Positions 6,566 to 38,499 of a DNA stretch of 38,499 bases are shown piece by piece. The position numbers and the translations under genes were made by a program. The DNA comes from a virus, in IMG/VR virus record IMGVR_UViG_3300036791_000820, positions 1-38,499 of that record. The stretch is one strand, 5' to 3'. The notes beneath the pieces were generated by a model. It was given only the letters and a program-made list of their open reading frames with translations, made no database searches and had not been told where the DNA came from. Numbering within the stretch: position 1 is the stretch's first letter; each line of letters opens with the position of its first letter.

Positions 6566-6781
6566 ATGCAATTTCGTGCACGTTTGGTACAGGTGACGGC
6601 GACGGCGCCGACGTCGGTGGACAAGCCGCGCAAGGTCGCGGTGAAACTCGAGCCGTTGGACCTGCCGGAGGCCGACTGGCTGTATGACCACATCGGCGAC
6701 TGGCTGACGGTCCAACTCGCGACCGGGTCACTGCCACGCTCGCCGATCGAGGAGGCGATCGAGGAAGCTGCTCGCCACTGA
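6566..6781 (+). CDS. Hypothetical protein, 71 aa
   Basis: The protein is not recognised. It starts MQFRARLVQVTATAPT, a beta-like N-terminus, followed by a basic strand (KVAVKLEPLDLP) and an acidic C-terminal helix (SPIEEAIEEAARH). It begins three bases after the preceding stop and its stop overlaps ATG 6781 of the replication-type protein. Confidence 0.6.
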   Translation: MQFRARLVQVTATAPTSVDKPRKVAVKLEPLDLPEADWLYDHIGDWLTVQLATGSLPRSPIEEAIEEAARH

Positions 6782-7620
6782 TGGCCCGTCTGGACACCGG
6801 CTGGCATGCCAATCCGAAGGTGCTGCGCGCGGGTGCGCACGGCATGGCCTTGCACGCGTGGAGCATCAGTTATTGCGATGACGCGCGGTCGGATGGATTC
6901 ATTCCGGCTGATGCGTGGCCGGCGCTCCTAAAGGCTGGTGTCAAGCCGCTCGTCCAGGCCGGTCTGTGGGAGGCCATCGACGGTGGCTACCGACTTCACG
7001 ATTATCTGAGCTACAACCGGTCGCGCGCAGAGATTGCAGCGGAGCAGGACATGGTGAAAGTCCGTCGCGATCTGTACGCGGATGGCGAGTTGCGCACTGC
7101 AATCAGGAATCGTGATGGTGACTCGTGTCGCTACTGCGCGGTGGGCGTCGACTGGAGGGACCGCAAGGGGCCTCGCGGTGCTACGTATGACCACGTTGAC
7201 CCTAGCGGTGGCAATGCGCTGGACAATGTTGTCGTGGCGTGCCGGGCGTGCAATGCGGCGAAGGGACAACGGACGCCTGCGGACGCGCTGCTCACCCTGC
7301 TGGCGCCACCTCCGAAATCTACGCGGAATCAACTCCGATCTACTCCGAAATCTACGCGGAATCAACTCGAAAATCTGGATTCTCTCGCGCGCGCGGCCGT
7401 TCCCGGTCCCGGTCCCGGAGTTAACTCTGCCGGTATGACTGCCGGTCTGTCACAGGACTTAAGACCGGAGACCGGGACTAACTCGCGCAGACGCGCGGCC
7501 GCCCTCGCGCGCGAGGCCCTCGAGACGGCAAGCAGGCAGGCAAGCACATTTTTGAATTCTGAGAACGACGAGCTGCCCCCCGAGGTCCTCAGTCGCCTCG
7601 CCCAGACGCCCCTATCATGA
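6781..7620 (+). CDS. Replication-type protein with embedded HNH domain, 279 aa
   Basis: Residues 1-85 (MARLDTGWHANPKVLRAG, LHAWSISYCDDARSDGFIP, GGYRLHDYLSYNRSRAEI) match the winged-helix N-terminal domain common in phage replisome-organiser or O-like initiators of GC-rich hosts. Residues 97-168 are an HNH domain: C116-x2-C119, TYDHVDP with D137-H138, and C154-x2-C157 followed by NAAKGQRTP. The C-terminal part is low-complexity and contains a repeated STRNQL peptide encoded by iteron-like direct repeats (7311..7368), reminiscent of origins inside initiator genes. The likely role is replication initiation. Whether the HNH domain nicks DNA in that process is unknown. ATG 6781 overlaps the previous stop. 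Confidence 0.65.
   Translation: MARLDTGWHANPKVLRAGAHGMALHAWSISYCDDARSDGFIPADAWPALLKAGVKPLVQAGLWEAIDGGYRLHDYLSYNRSRAEIAAEQDMVKVRRDLYADGELRTAIRNRDGDSCRYCAVGVDWRDRKGPRGATYDHVDPSGGNALDNVVVACRACNAAKGQRTPADALLTLLAPPPKSTRNQLRSTPKSTRNQLENLDSLARAAVPGPGPGVNSAGMTAGLSQDLRPETGTNSRRRAAALAREALETASRQASTFLNSENDELPPEVLSRLAQTPLS
7311..7368 (+). repeat. Iteron-like direct repeats inside the replication-type gene (candidate origin)
   Basis: A 25-bp unit occurs twice without mismatch (7311..7335 and 7344..7368, period 33). Each contains the small dyad TCCG-N9-CGGA, and a partial third unit (TCCGATCTAC) lies between them. The stretch is locally A/T-richer than its surroundings and is followed by TCGAAAATCTGG. Lambdoid phages carry comparable dyad-containing iterons with an A/T-rich flank inside gene O, so this is a candidate replication origin. 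A simple coding repeat is the alternative. Confidence 0.45.
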
Positions 7621-9866: not shown

Positions 9867-10199
9867 ATGACGAGCCCAGCCCAGCCGCTCTATCCGCACA
9901 CGCTGCTCCCGCCGCCGTCCGAGGACGTGGCGCCCACCGTCGACGTCGATGCGCTGTGCGACCTGTTCGATCGCAGCGGCACCACGGTGATGTACGTCAA
10001 CACCGAGCTCACCCAGTCCGAGGCGCAGGCATTGTTCGACGCGCACCAGCTGGTGGCCGAGTTCGACAGCGTGCGGGGCGTCGACGGTATTCGCCGCGCC
10101 ACCGACGACGAGATCGCCACCGCCGCGGCTGCCGCGGCTGCCGCGGCGACCAAGCAACCGGCGCCCAAGACGACGACCACCAGCAAGAGCAGCACCTAG
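9867..10199 (+). CDS. Hypothetical protein, 110 aa
   Basis: The protein is not recognised. It has an N-terminal Pro-rich segment, a compact middle (VDVDALCDLFDRSGTTVMYVNTELTQSEAQALF) and a run of about nine alanines followed by a Lys/Thr/Ser tail, as in proteins attached to virion components. The start at 9867 follows a TAGACT box by six bases. It is probably a head accessory protein, by position between terminase and portal. Confidence 0.55.
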   Translation: MTSPAQPLYPHTLLPPPSEDVAPTVDVDALCDLFDRSGTTVMYVNTELTQSEAQALFDAHQLVAEFDSVRGVDGIRRATDDEIATAAAAAAAAATKQPAPKTTTTSKSST

Positions 10200-10206
10200 C
10201 CCGCAG

Positions 10207-10671
10207 GTGAACGAACGCGAGGTCCCGACGCCAGGCCAGCTCGCCACCATGTGCCTGAGTTGTGGTGTCCGGCCACGTCAAGCACGCACTGGCACGCGAG
10301 GACCTGCGCCGCGCTACTGCGAGCAGTGTCGAGTCGAGGTTACGCGTCAATCGATCCGCGAGTATCAGCACCATTGGCGTGAGGATCCCGAGCACCGCGC
10401 TCAGCAGTCCGAGTACTACGCCACGCGACCGCGGTATACGCGCTCAGTGACGCATCGCCGAGCACGCTACGGCCTGAGCCACAGTCAGATCCGTACCTGG
10501 CTCGCATTTCAGGGCTGGCTGTGCGGCCTATGCCAGGAACCGCTCGAGGACCGCTTCGACGTCGATCATGACCACGACACCGGTATCGTGCGCGGATTGC
10601 TGCACCACGGCTGCAACACGTTGCTTGAGCAACACCCGAACGTTGAGCACTATAAAGCCGGCTGGGTCTGA
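10207..10671 (+). CDS. Endonuclease VII-type HNH homing endonuclease, fused to a duplicated portal start, 154 aa
   Basis: Residues 85-154 are a recombination-endonuclease-VII domain: RYGLSHSQIRTWLAFQGW, C106-x2-C109, DVDHDHDTG at 118-126 and VRGLLHHGCN. The N-terminal part has a zinc ribbon (C16-x2-C19, C38-x2-C41). The first 15 codons (MNEREVPTPGQLATM) are the same peptide that starts the portal gene at 10671, with one V/I difference, but in the G/C-rich spelling usual here. The native nuclease start is probably ATG 10249, and 10207..10248 is a stranded piece of the old portal gene. Such enzymes cut an uninvaded relative and spread by repair. The stop overlaps the new portal ATG. Confidence 0.8.
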   Translation: MNEREVPTPGQLATMCLSCGVRPRQARTGTRGPAPRYCEQCRVEVTRQSIREYQHHWREDPEHRAQQSEYYATRPRYTRSVTHRRARYGLSHSQIRTWLAFQGWLCGLCQEPLEDRFDVDHDHDTGIVRGLLHHGCNTLLEQHPNVEHYKAGWV

Positions 10672-10775
10672 TGAACGAACGGGAAATTCCCACACCTGGG
10701 CAACTGGCAACAATGTGGAATTCGAAGTACTCGGAATTCATGACCACGCGTTTGCGCGTCAGAGATTGTCGCGAC
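10671..10775 (+). other. Synonymously recoded 5' tract of the portal gene
   Basis: Codons 1-15 encode the same peptide as 10207..10251 but differ in 12 of 15 codons; ten of these are purely synonymous third-base changes. Third-position G/C falls from 13 of 15 in the upstream copy to 7 of 15 here. A/T-rich codon choice (AAT, GAA, AGA, GAT, TGT) continues to about 10775, after which the normal spelling resumes. It looks like a flank imported together with the endonuclease gene. Confidence 0.6.
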
Positions 10776-12698
10776 TGGCTGGCGAATCGCTGGGACCCGG
10801 TCGTGCCCAAGGACTTCGCCCAGGTCAGCGGCAACCTGGCGGTCAAACTGCCGTACGGCATCACCGTGGCCTTGCACGCGGTGCAGATGCTCAGCTCGAA
10901 ACGACCACGCTTGCGGCGGGATCCGATGGGCAAGAGCGTCACCGCGCGCACCAACGCCTCGGACCTGGAGATCTGGGCCAACGCGGCCGTCACCGCCGTC
11001 GAGGAGCAGCACGGCGCCTTCTGGCGACCGCTCATGGACATGCTGTTCAACCAGGGCTGCGCCGCAGTGCTGTGTTTTCCCGCGGCGGCCGGCTGGGAAG
11101 ACATGCCGTCGTACGTCGACGAGGACGGCGGCGTGTACCGCCAGTGGAAGTCCGACAGTGGCAAGCACTCGCGCCAGATGTACGAGGACTACCTGCTCGA
11201 CTGGAAGGCGCGCCAGGTGCCGATCAGCATCCGCGTCGTGGGCGTCGACCAGTGCCTGCCCATCCTCGGCCCGGGGCATCGCCTGGACGGGCTGATCGTG
11301 CGCTCGCAGTACGCCCAGGAGCAGCTCGAGGCGGCCGGCTACCGCTGGCGGTTTTCGGATAGCGGCCACGTCGGCGCCGGCTACGACCCGGACTATCTGA
11401 GCCAGGCACGCGGTATGTACCCCAAGTTCACGCTGTACGAGCTGTGGCGGCCCGGCTCGGTGGTCTACTACATCGGCCAGGGCGTGACCGCGCCGGCGAC
11501 CGACGGCTCGAACCTGACCATCGCCTACCGCGTCGGCCAGGGCGGCGACACCAACCTGGCCGCGATCGACCTGAAACGCGACTTCGGCATCTCGCGACTG
11601 TGCGGCCAGTTCATCTGGGGCTGCAACTTCGCCAGTGAGACGGACCCCGATCGCCGCGGCGTGCCGTTCCTGTGGCCATTCTTGAGTTCGTTCCAGGGCA
11701 TGAACAACCTGGCGACCGCCAAGCTGGCGCACACCTGGCAGCACGCGTTCGGCGGCTGGTTCATTCCCGCCAACGCCGACGTGTCGCCCGACCTGGTGCT
11801 CGAGAACGGTCGGCCGCGCGAGATCGACATCCAGCCGATGAAGGCGCAGTACGTGGCTGGCACACCCGTACCCGCCAGCCATCCGGGTACGGGCAAGGAC
11901 GTCGACGAGCTGATGGGGCTGATGCTGGGCGCCATCCACGAGGAGGCGCCATCCGCGGCAGCTGGCGGTGGTCCCGGTGCCACGTCGGGTCATGACCGAG
12001 CATTGATTCGCTCAATGCTGCAGGACGCCTACGACGACGTGTTGAACGGCGGGTTGCAGGCGATGACCTTCGTCGGCAGCATGGCCACCGAGATCGCCGA
12101 TCGCATCGTCGACAACTACGAGGTGACGGTCCCGGTGTACTGCAGTGTGCAGCCCAAGGGCATGCGCCAATCGGTGCGCAAGGCGCAAGAGTTGACCCAG
12201 GATATGTGCGCCGGCGTGTACGACTTCTGGGCCGAATATCCACCGGAAGAGGGCGAAAACTTGCCGTACGCCCAGATGCTCATGCAGTGGAGCCTCGAGG
12301 GCCGCATCCCGTTGCGTCAGGCGCTGGAGAAGGGACTCGGCGATGAGAGTCCGGACGAGACGATGATCGAGATCCAGACCGAGAAACTGTTGTTCAACAC
12401 GCCGCAGGGACAGCAGTATCTGTTTCAGCTGGTGGGCAAGAAGCTGGACGACCAGAAGATGGCGCAGTTGTTTGCAGCAGTGCAGGCCGGCAACGCGATG
12501 CCGGACGGCACGCCCACCGCGGCGCTGCCGGGTGGCGGTCAGCCACCTGGACCCACGGGGCAACTGGCCGGCACCAACCCGCCGCAGCCGGTGAACTCGG
12601 CGATCGGTGGCATCATGGCGGGTGCCACACAGGCCGGGCCGATGCGTCAGGACGTCCTGGCGCAAATGAACACGCCGCCCGTGCGAGCGGGCACTTAG
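10671..12698 (+). CDS. Portal protein, 675 aa
   Basis: This gene follows the terminase. The size, the helical start, an YLLDWKARQVPISIRVV region, a long tunnel-like helix zone, and a C-terminal Pro/Gly/Gln-rich tail with GTNPPQP all fit dodecameric portal proteins, through which DNA enters and leaves the head and on which scaffold and ejection proteins assemble. ATG 10671 overlaps the endonuclease stop (TGATG), so translation depends on reading through the inserted nuclease gene. The first 30-35 codons are unusually A/T-rich and duplicate the nuclease's N-terminus in sense. It is followed by a strong AGGAGG before the next gene. Confidence 0.85.
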   Translation: MNEREIPTPGQLATMWNSKYSEFMTTRLRVRDCRDWLANRWDPVVPKDFAQVSGNLAVKLPYGITVALHAVQMLSSKRPRLRRDPMGKSVTARTNASDLEIWANAAVTAVEEQHGAFWRPLMDMLFNQGCAAVLCFPAAAGWEDMPSYVDEDGGVYRQWKSDSGKHSRQMYEDYLLDWKARQVPISIRVVGVDQCLPILGPGHRLDGLIVRSQYAQEQLEAAGYRWRFSDSGHVGAGYDPDYLSQARGMYPKFTLYELWRPGSVVYYIGQGVTAPATDGSNLTIAYRVGQGGDTNLAAIDLKRDFGISRLCGQFIWGCNFASETDPDRRGVPFLWPFLSSFQGMNNLATAKLAHTWQHAFGGWFIPANADVSPDLVLENGRPREIDIQPMKAQYVAGTPVPASHPGTGKDVDELMGLMLGAIHEEAPSAAAGGGPGATSGHDRALIRSMLQDAYDDVLNGGLQAMTFVGSMATEIADRIVDNYEVTVPVYCSVQPKGMRQSVRKAQELTQDMCAGVYDFWAEYPPEEGENLPYAQMLMQWSLEGRIPLRQALEKGLGDESPDETMIEIQTEKLLFNTPQGQQYLFQLVGKKLDDQKMAQLFAAVQAGNAMPDGTPTAALPGGGQPPGPTGQLAGTNPPQPVNSAIGGIMAGATQAGPMRQDVLAQMNTPPVRAGT

Positions 12699-24163: not shown

Positions 24164-25044
24164 TCGCGAACGTCAACATTACGACCTCGGCGGTGTTCAT
24201 CGACCAGGTCTGGAGTCCCGAACTCAACCGGGCCATTCAATACGACATCGTGCTCGCCGCGCTGCTCGACGACAAGTCGGCGCTCGTCGACCAGCACGCC
24301 AACACCATCAACCTGCCGTCCAGGCACAACCTGACCGCCAACGCCAAGGCGCCGGGTACCGCGCTCACGCCGCAGGCGATCACCGAGACGCAGCAGCAGT
24401 TCATCCTGCCGATGACCAACGGTCACCGCGCCATCGCCCAGCAGATTGAAGATATCGCCGAGATCCAGTCGCGCTACGACATCCGCGCCGAGACGACCGT
24501 CGCCGGCGCCTACGCCCTGGCGCGCCAGATGGACGTCGATGCCGCAGGCCTGTTCAGCGCCGCGACCAACGCCGTTGGCACCCTGGGCAGCGAGCTCACC
24601 GACGACAACCTGATCCAGGGCCGCACCCTGCTGCGCAACAACGCCGCGCCGCGGCCGTGGTACATCGCCGTCTCACCCGCGACCTACTCCGGGTTTCTCA
24701 AACTGGAGAAATTCACCAACATGCTGTACGTCGGCCAGGATGAGGCGGGCACCGCCGTCGAAGAGGCCAAGGTCGGCAAGATGTACGGCGCCGACGTGTA
24801 CGAGTCGCAGTTGCTCTCGGGGACCGCGCCGAACTCAGTGGGTGCCTTCTGGTCGAAGACGCACTTCTTCAAAGCACTACAGAGACAACCGACTACACAT
24901 ACATGGTATTCTCCGCTTGATTTGAGCTGGATAGTCTCGTGCGATACGATTTACGGTATGTTTGAGCGGCTAGAAGCAGACGAAGCCGCAGCCGCCACAA
25001 CAAATAGTTCAGATTGGACAGTTAAATTAAATGCCCTGAAGTGA
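24163..25044 (+). CDS. Major capsid protein, 293 aa, apparently starting with ATC
   Basis: The N-terminus (I)ANVNITTSAVFIDQVWSPE is the typical N-arm of a large family of phage coat proteins. DKSALVDQHANTINLPS, TNGHRAIAQQIEDIAEIQS, MDVDAAGLFSAATN and PWYIAVSPATYSGFLKLE follow, and the C-terminus ends with the characteristic DLSWIVSCDTIYG strand. An in-frame stop at 24130 leaves no ATG, GTG or TTG before GTG 24193, which would delete the N-arm and has no Shine-Dalgarno. ATC 24163 is spaced seven bases from GAGGG. The last 56 codons use A/T-ending codons much more than the rest, directly before the LAGLIDADG gene. Family assignment is sure; the start is not. Confidence 0.82.
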   Translation: MANVNITTSAVFIDQVWSPELNRAIQYDIVLAALLDDKSALVDQHANTINLPSRHNLTANAKAPGTALTPQAITETQQQFILPMTNGHRAIAQQIEDIAEIQSRYDIRAETTVAGAYALARQMDVDAAGLFSAATNAVGTLGSELTDDNLIQGRTLLRNNAAPRPWYIAVSPATYSGFLKLEKFTNMLYVGQDEAGTAVEEAKVGKMYGADVYESQLLSGTAPNSVGAFWSKTHFFKALQRQPTTHTWYSPLDLSWIVSCDTIYGMFERLEADEAAAATTNSSDWTVKLNALK

Positions 25045-25112
25045 ACCTAGCATAGATTGTTCGCTTCACATGTTGGGAAATGATATGATCTACGAGCAAG
25101 GAGGGTTTGTGT
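24874..25112 (+). other. A/T-rich recoded capsid 3' end and leader of the LAGLIDADG gene
   Basis: At codon 238 of the capsid gene the spelling changes abruptly. The preceding 36 codons have G or C in third position 34 times, whereas the last 56 codons do so 23 times. The peptide still looks like a normal coat C-terminus. The A/T-rich character continues through 68 non-coding bases, which contain TATGAT (25084..25089, a possible -10) and AAGGAGGG before the endonuclease ATG. GTGAAC (25041..25046) and GTTCGCTTCAC could form an imperfect hairpin after the capsid stop. Confidence 0.6.
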
Positions 25113-25832
25113 ATGAAACCCAACTCACCCGTAGATCGTCGTCAGTGTGTCACGTGCGGCAGTGTTTTGCCTCAGCGCTATGGGCCAGCCGAAAAGTGCC
25201 GGGCGTGCCATCTCACAGCCGTAAGAGTCGCCGGAAACGGTACTGGCGAATGCGTCGACTGCGGCAAACAACTGCGCAACCGAGCGTCTGCCCGATGTCG
25301 GTCCTGCTGGATGGCGAGCACTCGTCGATCGACCTGGCAAGCGCGTCCCGACGATTGGCAACCGCGCGGTGCGCTGGAAGTTGCACCATCTCAGACGACA
25401 ACCGAGCAGCGTGCGTATGCCGCCGGGATGGTCGATGGCGAAGGCCATATCGGCTTGGCACCGTGGAAGGGCAGTTTTCTGCCACTCGCAGAGGTCATCA
25501 ATACCGACAAACGAGTGATCGACTGGTTCGTCGAGCGGTTCCCTGGTGGCAACGTTGTCAAGAACGATCGTCGCAACGCGCTGCACAAGCCGCGCTACAA
25601 CTGGAGACTCACCGGCCGTCGGGCGTATGCCTTCTTGCAGGAAGTGTTGCCCTATCTGGTCATCAAGCGCGATCAGGCGGCGATCATCTTCACCTACTAC
25701 GACGATGGTGGCTATTTTCAGCATGGCGCAGACGGTTTACCGGCGGAGGAAATCATCAGGCGTGCACAGTTGCATGTGAAGTGCAAGACACTGAACGCGC
25801 GAGGTCCGCGTGCAGCTGATTATCAAACGTGA
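25113..25832 (+). CDS. LAGLIDADG homing endonuclease with N-terminal zinc ribbons, 239 aa
   Basis: The signature AYAAGMVDGEGHIG at residues 101-114 is the LAGLIDADG helix with the catalytic acidic residue. A beta-rich DNA-contact region (VINTDKRVIDWFVERFPGGN; RYNWRLTGRRAYAFL) and VLPYLVIKRDQA follow. One motif means it acts as a homodimer. Before it lie two C-x2-C pairs per ribbon (C12-C15 with C29-C32; C47-C50 with C62-C65), probably for target recognition. ATG 25113 has an excellent AAGGAGGG seven bases upstream. The gene stands free directly after the capsid gene and overlaps the next by 23 bases. Its role is spreading itself into endonuclease-free relatives. Confidence 0.88.
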   Translation: MKPNSPVDRRQCVTCGSVLPQRYGPAEKCRACHLTAVRVAGNGTGECVDCGKQLRNRASARCRSCWMASTRRSTWQARPDDWQPRGALEVAPSQTTTEQRAYAAGMVDGEGHIGLAPWKGSFLPLAEVINTDKRVIDWFVERFPGGNVVKNDRRNALHKPRYNWRLTGRRAYAFLQEVLPYLVIKRDQAAIIFTYYDDGGYFQHGADGLPAEEIIRRAQLHVKCKTLNARGPRAADYQT

Positions 25833-37238: not shown

Positions 37239-38499
37239 ATCGGCTTGACCATCCGTAACTCGACCGTTCGCCAAGTCGGCAACTTCCGCTCAGAGGCGCA
37301 ACTCGACATGGTTGGCCGACTCGAAAGTCGCGGCTACCAGGTGCGCGTGTATGACGAGCAGGGCACCTCCGGCGCCCACCTCAAGAAACGAGCGGTCGCG
37401 CTGCAGATGTTCGATGACCTGCGGCGGGGCGATATCGGTGGTATCGGCGCGTTTGACGTCAAGCGACTCACGCGCGACGAGTTCGGCGTCGATGGCGGGA
37501 CCATCGCGCGGCGCATCGTTGAGGCCGGTGGCCTGTTCGTCACCTGGGATAAGGACTACGACCTGCGCAACGATGACGACCTGCTGCAGTTCCAGTTCCA
37601 GTGCCTGCTCGCCGGCATTGACTGGCGGGGCATCCGCAACACCTTCTGGTCGGGCATCTTCAAGAAGCTGGAGCGCGAGCCCATGTACATGCGTCCACCG
37701 ATCGGCTACATGACCGAGCTGCTGCAGTCAGAGGGCACCACTCGGATCAAGCGTCGTGTCGCCAAAAATCCCGGACATGCCGGGCTGATCGCTGAACTCG
37801 AGCGCCTGTTTGAAGAGAGCGATTCACTCACGCAGATCGCGCGCGTGCTCAATACGCAGGGGCCGGCGCGTCCAGCCTTCCGCGGCCGCGGCGGGACCAC
37901 CACGCACTGGAGTGTGCAAAGCCTGCGCTACCTGCTGCGTAACTCGATCTACACCGGTGTGTTCACCTTCGGGGCACGCCTCAAGAAACGGTCCATCGTC
38001 TGGCACAAATTCGCGACCGATCCGCAGACCGGGCAACCGAAGGACTTCCGTCAGCACGTACCTGACCTCGCGTACTGGACGCCGGCGCAGGTCGGCCGCT
38101 GGCGAGCCAAGTTCGATAACCCCGGCGTCATTCGTACCGTTGAGACACGCTACCCGCACCCGTTGTCGGGCGTGCTCGACTGCATCAGTTGCGGCCAGCC
38201 GATGGTCGCGCGTGGCCCACGCCTGTACGCCTGCTCTGCACTCGGCACCCACCGTGGACGCAAAAGCGTACTGTGCACCGCGCCCCAGGCACTCAGCGTC
38301 AACGTGGCCGCGCAGATCATGCGCCAGGAGCTGCCGCGCGCCATGTACAACGTGCAGGCGGTCGCTGCCGAGCTCCGGGCACAGCAAAAGGAGCACACGA
38401 CCTCGGCGGCAGAACAGCGCCTCGCGTTTCTCGAGGACCGTGCGAAGTGGATCAACGACCAACTGTGGAACAGCCCGAAACCGGTGCCGTCGTTGGTCA
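37230..38499 (+). CDS. Large serine recombinase, N-terminal and central parts (continues at base 1)
   Basis: Catalytic resolvase domain: TIRNSTVRQ with R9 and nucleophile S11, YDEQGTSG at 41-48, VKRLTRDEFG at 78-87, and a helix FQFQCLLAGIDWRG in place of the usual long E helix. The recombinase DNA-binding domain follows (MRPPIGYM; HWSVQSLRYLLRNSIYTGVF, typical), then LSGVLDCISCGQPM and LYACSALGTH, the zinc ribbon. The coiled-coil part follows and runs off the window, to be completed by bases 1..690. ATG 37230 overlaps the stop of the XRE gene. It catalyses site-specific integration of the prophage via a serine-DNA intermediate. A directionality factor is not identified. Confidence 0.9.
   Translation, partial: MTIIGLTIRNSTVRQVGNFRSEAQLDMVGRLESRGYQVRVYDEQGTSGAHLKKRAVALQMFDDLRRGDIGGIGAFDVKRLTRDEFGVDGGTIARRIVEAGGLFVTWDKDYDLRNDDDLLQFQFQCLLAGIDWRGIRNTFWSGIFKKLEREPMYMRPPIGYMTELLQSEGTTRIKRRVAKNPGHAGLIAELERLFEESDSLTQIARVLNTQGPARPAFRGRGGTTTHWSVQSLRYLLRNSIYTGVFTFGARLKKRSIVWHKFATDPQTGQPKDFRQHVPDLAYWTPAQVGRWRAKFDNPGVIRTVETRYPHPLSGVLDCISCGQPMVARGPRLYACSALGTHRGRKSVLCTAPQALSVNVAAQIMRQELPRAMYNVQAVAAELRAQQKEHTTSAAEQRLAFLEDRAKWINDQLWNSPKPVPSLV
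38250..38499. repeat. Right copy of 250-bp terminal direct repeat
   Basis: Matches 1..250 with two substitutions (38315 G versus T; 38373 C versus A). See the left copy. It closes the recombinase frame and implies a 38,249-bp circle. Confidence 0.9.

Follow-up and report, generated by a model that had tools for sequence, protein, structure and literature searches.

Among the closest described systems are those of yeasts and fungal mitochondria. The WHO elements of yeasts pair a WHO gene with a 3' region of FBA1 that confers resistance, and the old ends of FBA1 are pushed aside (PMC7282813). The mobile ORFs of fungal mitochondria bring foreign C-termini, which differ from the native copy largely by synonymous changes (PMC3630166). 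The EndoVII motif is described for the known homing endonuclease F-CphI, and also for proteins that are resolvases or restriction enzymes (PMC6083498). No phage precedent was found in the open-access literature searched. As far as their available parts go, the phage reviews PMC2988022, PMC10448857 and PMC12724721 describe neither a stranded gene end nor a nuclease fused to one.

The stretch of DNA analysed here, called the window, comprises the 38,499 bases of the IMG/VR virus record IMGVR_UViG_3300036791_000820; its portal/nuclease arrangement is known from one metagenomic contig. The ends of the record (1-250 and 38250-38499) overlap over 250 bp at 99.2%, with 2 mismatches, as in a circular or terminally redundant genome, and the record is therefore probably near complete. 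The segment from 10249 to about 10769 is probably a homing cassette, made up of an EndoVII-type nuclease gene and a replacement for the first ~33 codons of the gene that it entered. The features of this region are the following.

9867-10199, plus strand: small native gene upstream of the portal gene, 110 aa, 71% identical to that of the relative L019
10207-10251, plus strand: native start of the portal gene (codons 1-15), left stranded and now forming the nuclease ORF's N-terminus; spelling of nuclease-free relatives, GC3 0.87
10249-10671, plus strand: Endonuclease VII-type nuclease proper (MCLSCG...), catalytic D, H, H, R and N intact; from PF02945, phrog_2914, alignments and AF2
10671-12698, plus strand: putative portal gene, 675 aa, its start overlapping the nuclease stop (TGATG); named from position only
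10671-10769, plus strand: 5' end of the portal gene supplied as a replacement (codons 1-33), A/T-rich and synonymously rewritten; from codon comparison and GC3
10767-10781, plus strand: right junction TGTCGCGACTGGCTG, where the relatives' spelling resumes (as in L015 and L027); from comparison with relatives

The nuclease ORF (10207-10671, 154 aa) starts with GTG and has the N-terminus MNEREVPTPGQLATM, and the putative portal ORF (10671-12698, 675 aa) has the N-terminus MNEREIPTPGQLATM. The two 45-bp starts, at 10207 and 10671, encode 15 residues that are alike except for one V/I change, and their start codons are GTG and ATG. Three codons are identical, ten differ synonymously, all at the third base, and two differ otherwise, giving 13 differences in 45 nucleotides. 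When all forward-strand stop-to-stop ORFs of the whole window were compared, the 14-residue match between the starts had E=2e-7. The other pairs with E<0.05 were low-complexity chance matches, except the terminal overlap and one similar HTH pair. In a flank-comparison test of 88 EndoVII loci, the window scored 73; in comparisons across loci, the 99th percentile was 51 and the maximum 77. Composition also changes along the region, with a GC3 of 0.87 for the upstream copy, 0.70 for the nuclease core and 0.58 for portal codons 1-33; in the rest of the portal gene (codon 34 onward), it is 0.88. The nuclease and the patch are thus both low, with neighbours at 0.83-0.91. An earlier note on this DNA had described a nuclease gene that opens with the first 15 portal codons, spelled with G/C upstream and A/T-rich downstream, and both observations hold. 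Its name for the second gene, 'portal', agrees with the place of the gene after TerL. This place is the sole basis of the name, as the putative portal protein has no Pfam, PHROG or PDB match and its AF2 model is poor.

The nuclease matches PF02945 (E=1e-11), phrog_2914 and the PHROG endonuclease VII families. As in Endonuclease VII / DHHRN nucleases, the residues D120, H121, H123, R129 and N137 are conserved in the alignment. The AF2 model has a pLDDT of 83, and its best PDB match is T4 EndoVII 1e7l (probability 1.00, E only 0.02), followed by Hpy99I. As for the zinc pairs, CGLC is present, and the second pair reads HHGC, with His for the first Cys. The probable own ATG of the nuclease coincides with the ATG of portal codon 15 in the shared ATGTG. 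Since some related nucleases begin with M, zero to two residues and CxxC, the 14 portal-derived residues are probably an addition to the nuclease. A group I intron or intein was rejected because the window has no Rfam match and the portal start and stop both lie outside the nuclease. Elsewhere in the window, a gene at 6781-7620 (GC3 0.68) combines an N-terminus resembling replication initiators with an HNH domain (about residues 90-180), and is possibly another nuclease invasion.

A scan of viral contigs gave 33 portal relatives, 30 of which include the portal 5' end. An EndoVII gene is in none of the 33 relatives' records, which may be fragments. All 30 relatives with the 5' end spell the portal start as in the upstream copy of the window, and the A/T-rich start occurs in none of them. 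In codons 5-15, 2 of 33 nucleotides separate the upstream copy from L003 and 4 separate it from L002; for the downstream copy, the differences are 11 and 8. The portal gene of the relatives either follows the small upstream gene directly or has an unrelated gene in between. In L027, for instance, it starts directly after the small preceding gene, 'ctagcgcgtgGTCCGCGACCGCGACGTCCCGACGCCCGGCCAACTCGCCACCATGTGG'. Because the nuclease-free relatives share the spelling of the upstream copy, 10207-10251 is the old native portal start. As expected of a homing element, the nuclease is sporadically present, and the site is empty in relatives. The gene upstream of the portal gene in L008 and L024 was considered as a nuclease remnant (YGLSH...) and rejected as an unrelated small ORF.

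The foreign spelling extends beyond the duplicated codons. Compared with L002, the closest relative with a 5' end (92% protein identity), 19 of 26 informative codons are re-spelled in codons 2-33 and 171 of 544 from codon 34 onward (Fisher p=5e-5). The comparison with L003 gave 17/23 in the patch and 153/525 after it (p=2e-5), and the contrast fades with more distant relatives (L004, p=0.36). The re-spelling switches back at TGTCGCGACTGGCTG, about 10767. At the left junction, ATGTG is shared: portal codon 15 reads ATG followed by TG(G), and the nuclease reads ATG TG(C). The TGATG overlap of nuclease stop and portal start also joins the portal gene to other upstream genes in L004-L008. By their spelling, portal codons 1-33 are now a foreign patch. 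The earlier note had the nuclease inserted after portal codon 15, with the old start stranded as its N-terminus, and proposed an alignment with nuclease-free relatives. Their portals start with the upstream spelling and none is A/T-rich, so this account agrees with the left junction and with the 30 relatives. A foreign flank of about 100 bp was also well judged, the rewritten flank measuring ~99 bp. The rewritten start itself was confirmed, with an extent that reaches past codon 15 to about codon 33 (~10769).

Instead of having been recoded in place, the patch may be the donor's own start that came along by co-conversion. No donor of the nuclease was found when the nuclease was searched in viral contigs and genome contigs. 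The same holds for the patch, which was sought by its MWNSKYSEF start pattern, by a portal profile (which returned the same contigs) and by the portal in phages and genomes. A second copy of the exact element was likewise absent from the viral and genome contigs searched. In L019 (IMGVR_UViG_3300036791_000938), TerL is 90% identical to that of the window and the portal only 68%. The donor of the patch may belong to the lineage of L019, since its portal shares the MWNSKYSE wording with the rewritten start. An adaptation of translation initiation was discarded as the reason for the A/T-rich start: the patch reaches codon 33, the starts of the relatives are GC-rich, and the capsid case described below lies at a 3' end.

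The insertion at portal codon 15/16, the native and the replacement copy, both junctions, the foreign composition and the absence of the nuclease from the relatives can be read from the aligned sequences. The left join lies at the shared ATGTG, and translation of the nuclease now begins at the native start (GTG and 14 codons), which kept its translation signals. The right join formed by homology in codons 33-37; the portal gene therefore begins at the start that the cassette supplied, and TGATG couples this start to the stop of the nuclease. The history proposed for the cassette is as follows. The nuclease would cut the native portal start of co-infecting relatives, and repair would copy the cassette into the cut relative. 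The re-spelled start would escape cutting and would not recombine with the native end, and the protein would remain nearly unchanged.

A second gene end in the same genome is rewritten, next to a nuclease of another family.

24193-25044, plus strand: major capsid gene (phrog_267, E=2e-31)
24868-25041, plus strand: capsid codons 226-283, the second gene end that is rewritten, with GC3 0.41 against 0.91 before
25107-25832, plus strand: LAGLIDADG-like endonuclease after the capsid gene (phrog_5046, E=3e-22, named HNH in PHROGs; motif AAGMVDGEGHIGL; synteny)

The capsid spelling shifts near codon 225, affecting the last ~58 codons. Compared with L314, re-spelling affects 55 of 206 informative codons up to this point and 38 of 51 beyond it (p=6e-10). 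L314 has a small gene where the window has the LAGLIDADG-like endonuclease. No stranded native capsid end was seen in the window. Two relatives, L320/L321 (L339, L340), have a counterpart of this endonuclease with 52% identity; it adjoins the 3' end of the capsid gene, runs on the opposite strand and has one TGA within the matching region.

Similar arrangements were surveyed in two samples of viral contigs with 80 EndoVII loci each (partly overlapping), in seven annotated phage loci and in the window, using protein-level repeats across the nuclease as the test. Besides the window, clear cases were L147 (3' type) and L286 (5' type). In L100, a probable case, the C-terminus of the nuclease resembles that of the upstream gene. 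L117 is only a possible case and may represent two paralogues instead of a swap. L131 and several other matches were rejected as low-complexity or chance.

The neighbour of the nuclease in L147 is a DUF1599 gene with many relatives. In L147/L154 (one contig), L159 and L161, the order is a replaced 3' end (TARINNLLDNGVQ...), the nuclease and a stranded native end. The replacement tail is present in 3 of 3 nuclease-bearing loci and in no other of 76 loci. The gene body of L154 differs from the nuclease-free L155-L157 by 1 nucleotide in 270, and the tail by 47 in 129. Its stranded tail is identical over 129 nucleotides to the tail of L163, in which no copy of the L154-type nuclease was detected. 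L154 and L159 share 1,036 identical bases, covering the replacement end, the nuclease and the stranded junction, inside genes that are ~87% identical. Mismatches beside this tract are 27/210 on the left and 19/102 on the right. An identical tract between mismatched flanks indicates that the DUF1599 cassette was transferred whole, together with short stretches of co-converted flank. Judged from this tract, an analogous cassette has moved between other phages. Another EndoVII, in L213/L214, has the native DUF1599 tail, ...KWPELPND*, at its own end, and the gene now ends in RKWPELPGDDK* with re-spelled codons. L222-L224 have the same gene tail and nuclease, the nuclease end being slightly diverged. 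In its layout, the L213/L214 nuclease, with a native gene end as its C-terminus, is the mirror image of the window. Small nuclease genes are frequent just behind the DUF1599 gene across L154-L233, a hot spot in which at least three EndoVII types occur within ~1 kb. With such insertions at gene ends in other phages, the whole looks like a natural cut-and-replace element.

Ordinary mosaic recombination could also have produced the locus, though this seems unlikely. A lower-GC donor phage would have carried the nuclease as a plain gene before its portal gene, and one crossover in the portal gene and one illegitimate join would have brought in the donor's spelling, without selection for resistance and without drive. 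The low GC3 of both nuclease and patch would fit such an origin, as would the wording that codons 15-22 share with the divergent L019 portal. The unequal identities of TerL and portal in L019 also show that mosaicism occurs. Moreover, the replacement end of L286 has only ~50% protein identity, like a plain divergent homologue, which suggests that such elements also use plain divergent ends. Nevertheless, no donor was found in the contigs searched, and the combination of a nuclease and a rewritten end recurs at different genes with two nuclease families. The synonymous change is also too high for the protein similarity at all three ends. At given protein identity, it exceeds that of native pairs, being 0.65-0.67 at the portal end (mean of others 0.38, maximum 0.56), 0.71 at the capsid end (against 0.42 or 0.15) and 0.70 on average at the DUF1599 end (against 0.41); the compared pairs share ancestry, and these tests are not independent. 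Re-spelling beyond the protein change fits selection by the nuclease for an uncuttable spelling, which could cause it, without proving it. The excess would also arise if the ends had evolved apart for a long time in a host that uses codons differently.

It is very unlikely that the nuclease is a packaging or Holliday-junction enzyme which serves the phage, with the duplication as a by-product of its acquisition. The site between terminase and portal resembles that of the HNH packaging nucleases of lactococcal skunaviruses (PMC12724721), and the EndoVII motif is common to the T4 resolvase (PMC6083498). In the skunaviruses, however, the packaging nuclease occurs in 89 of 89 assessed (PMC12724721), whereas EndoVII is in 0 of 33 records of relatives with the same head genes. 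The insertion also displaced the portal's own start, and other EndoVII genes of like architecture lie at the DUF1599 gene.

An assembly chimera of two phage strains is highly improbable: the contig is metagenomic and comes without reads, but the ORFs are uninterrupted and joined by the TGATG overlap, the words shared at the junctions are only ~5 and ~15 nucleotides, the capsid gene has a second rewritten end, independent contigs have the same architecture, and the window ends overlap in the way expected of a nearly complete assembly, whether circular or terminally redundant. It is equally improbable that the portal start was duplicated locally and the copies then drifted, for although AACGAACG is common to both copies and not seen in the starts of relatives, the nuclease sits between the copies, about two thirds of the patch codons with identical amino acids are re-spelled against ~0.3 in the rest of the gene, and the composition of the patch is foreign.

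Beyond the homing cassette at the portal gene, a broader proposition is about evenly balanced between right and wrong. Phages would carry recurrent natural cut-and-replace homing cassettes, in which a nuclease (EndoVII or LAGLIDADG-like) is permanently linked to a synonymously recoded 5' or 3' end of its target gene. The re-spelling would be driven by the nuclease and the protein conserved, the stranded end could be captured by the nuclease, and one phage would hold two such cassettes (portal and major capsid). If this mechanism is true, phages have evolved the trick of engineered home-and-rescue gene drives, namely a nuclease with a recoded, uncuttable part of an essential gene. Such an element could sit inside an essential gene without an intron or intein, and would explain why phage structural genes show abrupt mosaic patches at their ends. 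A re-spelled gene end beside a nuclease would be a signature that can be scanned for in sequences, and target sites would be predictable.

Among known phage nucleases, F-CphI and the DHHRN homing endonucleases share the EndoVII catalytic residues and are phage-borne, but, unlike the window, no duplicated gene end is reported for them in the available part of PMC6083498. Like the nuclease of the window, the free-standing homing endonucleases of T4 are intronless, and they spread in mixed infections with co-conversion of flanks. They lie between genes with the cut site elsewhere, and the available part of the source describes no stranded end or fused nuclease (PMC2988022). In the mobile ORFs of Allomyces (atp6) and Glomus (atp6, atp9, cox2, nad3), as in the window, an endonuclease ORF is combined with a duplicated host-gene end, synonymous divergence and a hybrid gene. 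Those ORFs concern C-terminal ends, LAGLIDADG or GIY-YIG enzymes and mitochondria, whereas the phage cassettes include an N-terminal version (PMC3630166). At FBA1 of Torulaspora and Lachancea, the WHO nuclease gene likewise lies beside the gene that it targets, whose end has a divergent replacement and whose native end is stranded (PMC7282813). The window shares with WHO and mobile ORF cassettes this replacement of a host-gene end and its stranded counterpart. It lies outside the WHO family proper, whose members are LAGLIDADG, intein-derived nucleases with a zinc finger at the FBA1 3' end of yeast chromosomes; in the window, an EndoVII lies at the 5' end of a phage gene, and the native start is fused to the nuclease (PMC7282813). 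Resistance to cleavage was demonstrated for WHO (PMC7282813) and is presumed for the cassette of the window. The arrangement is thus, by analogy, one already known from yeast and fungal mitochondria, where it is found at 3' ends with other nucleases, and the window probably holds its phage counterpart.
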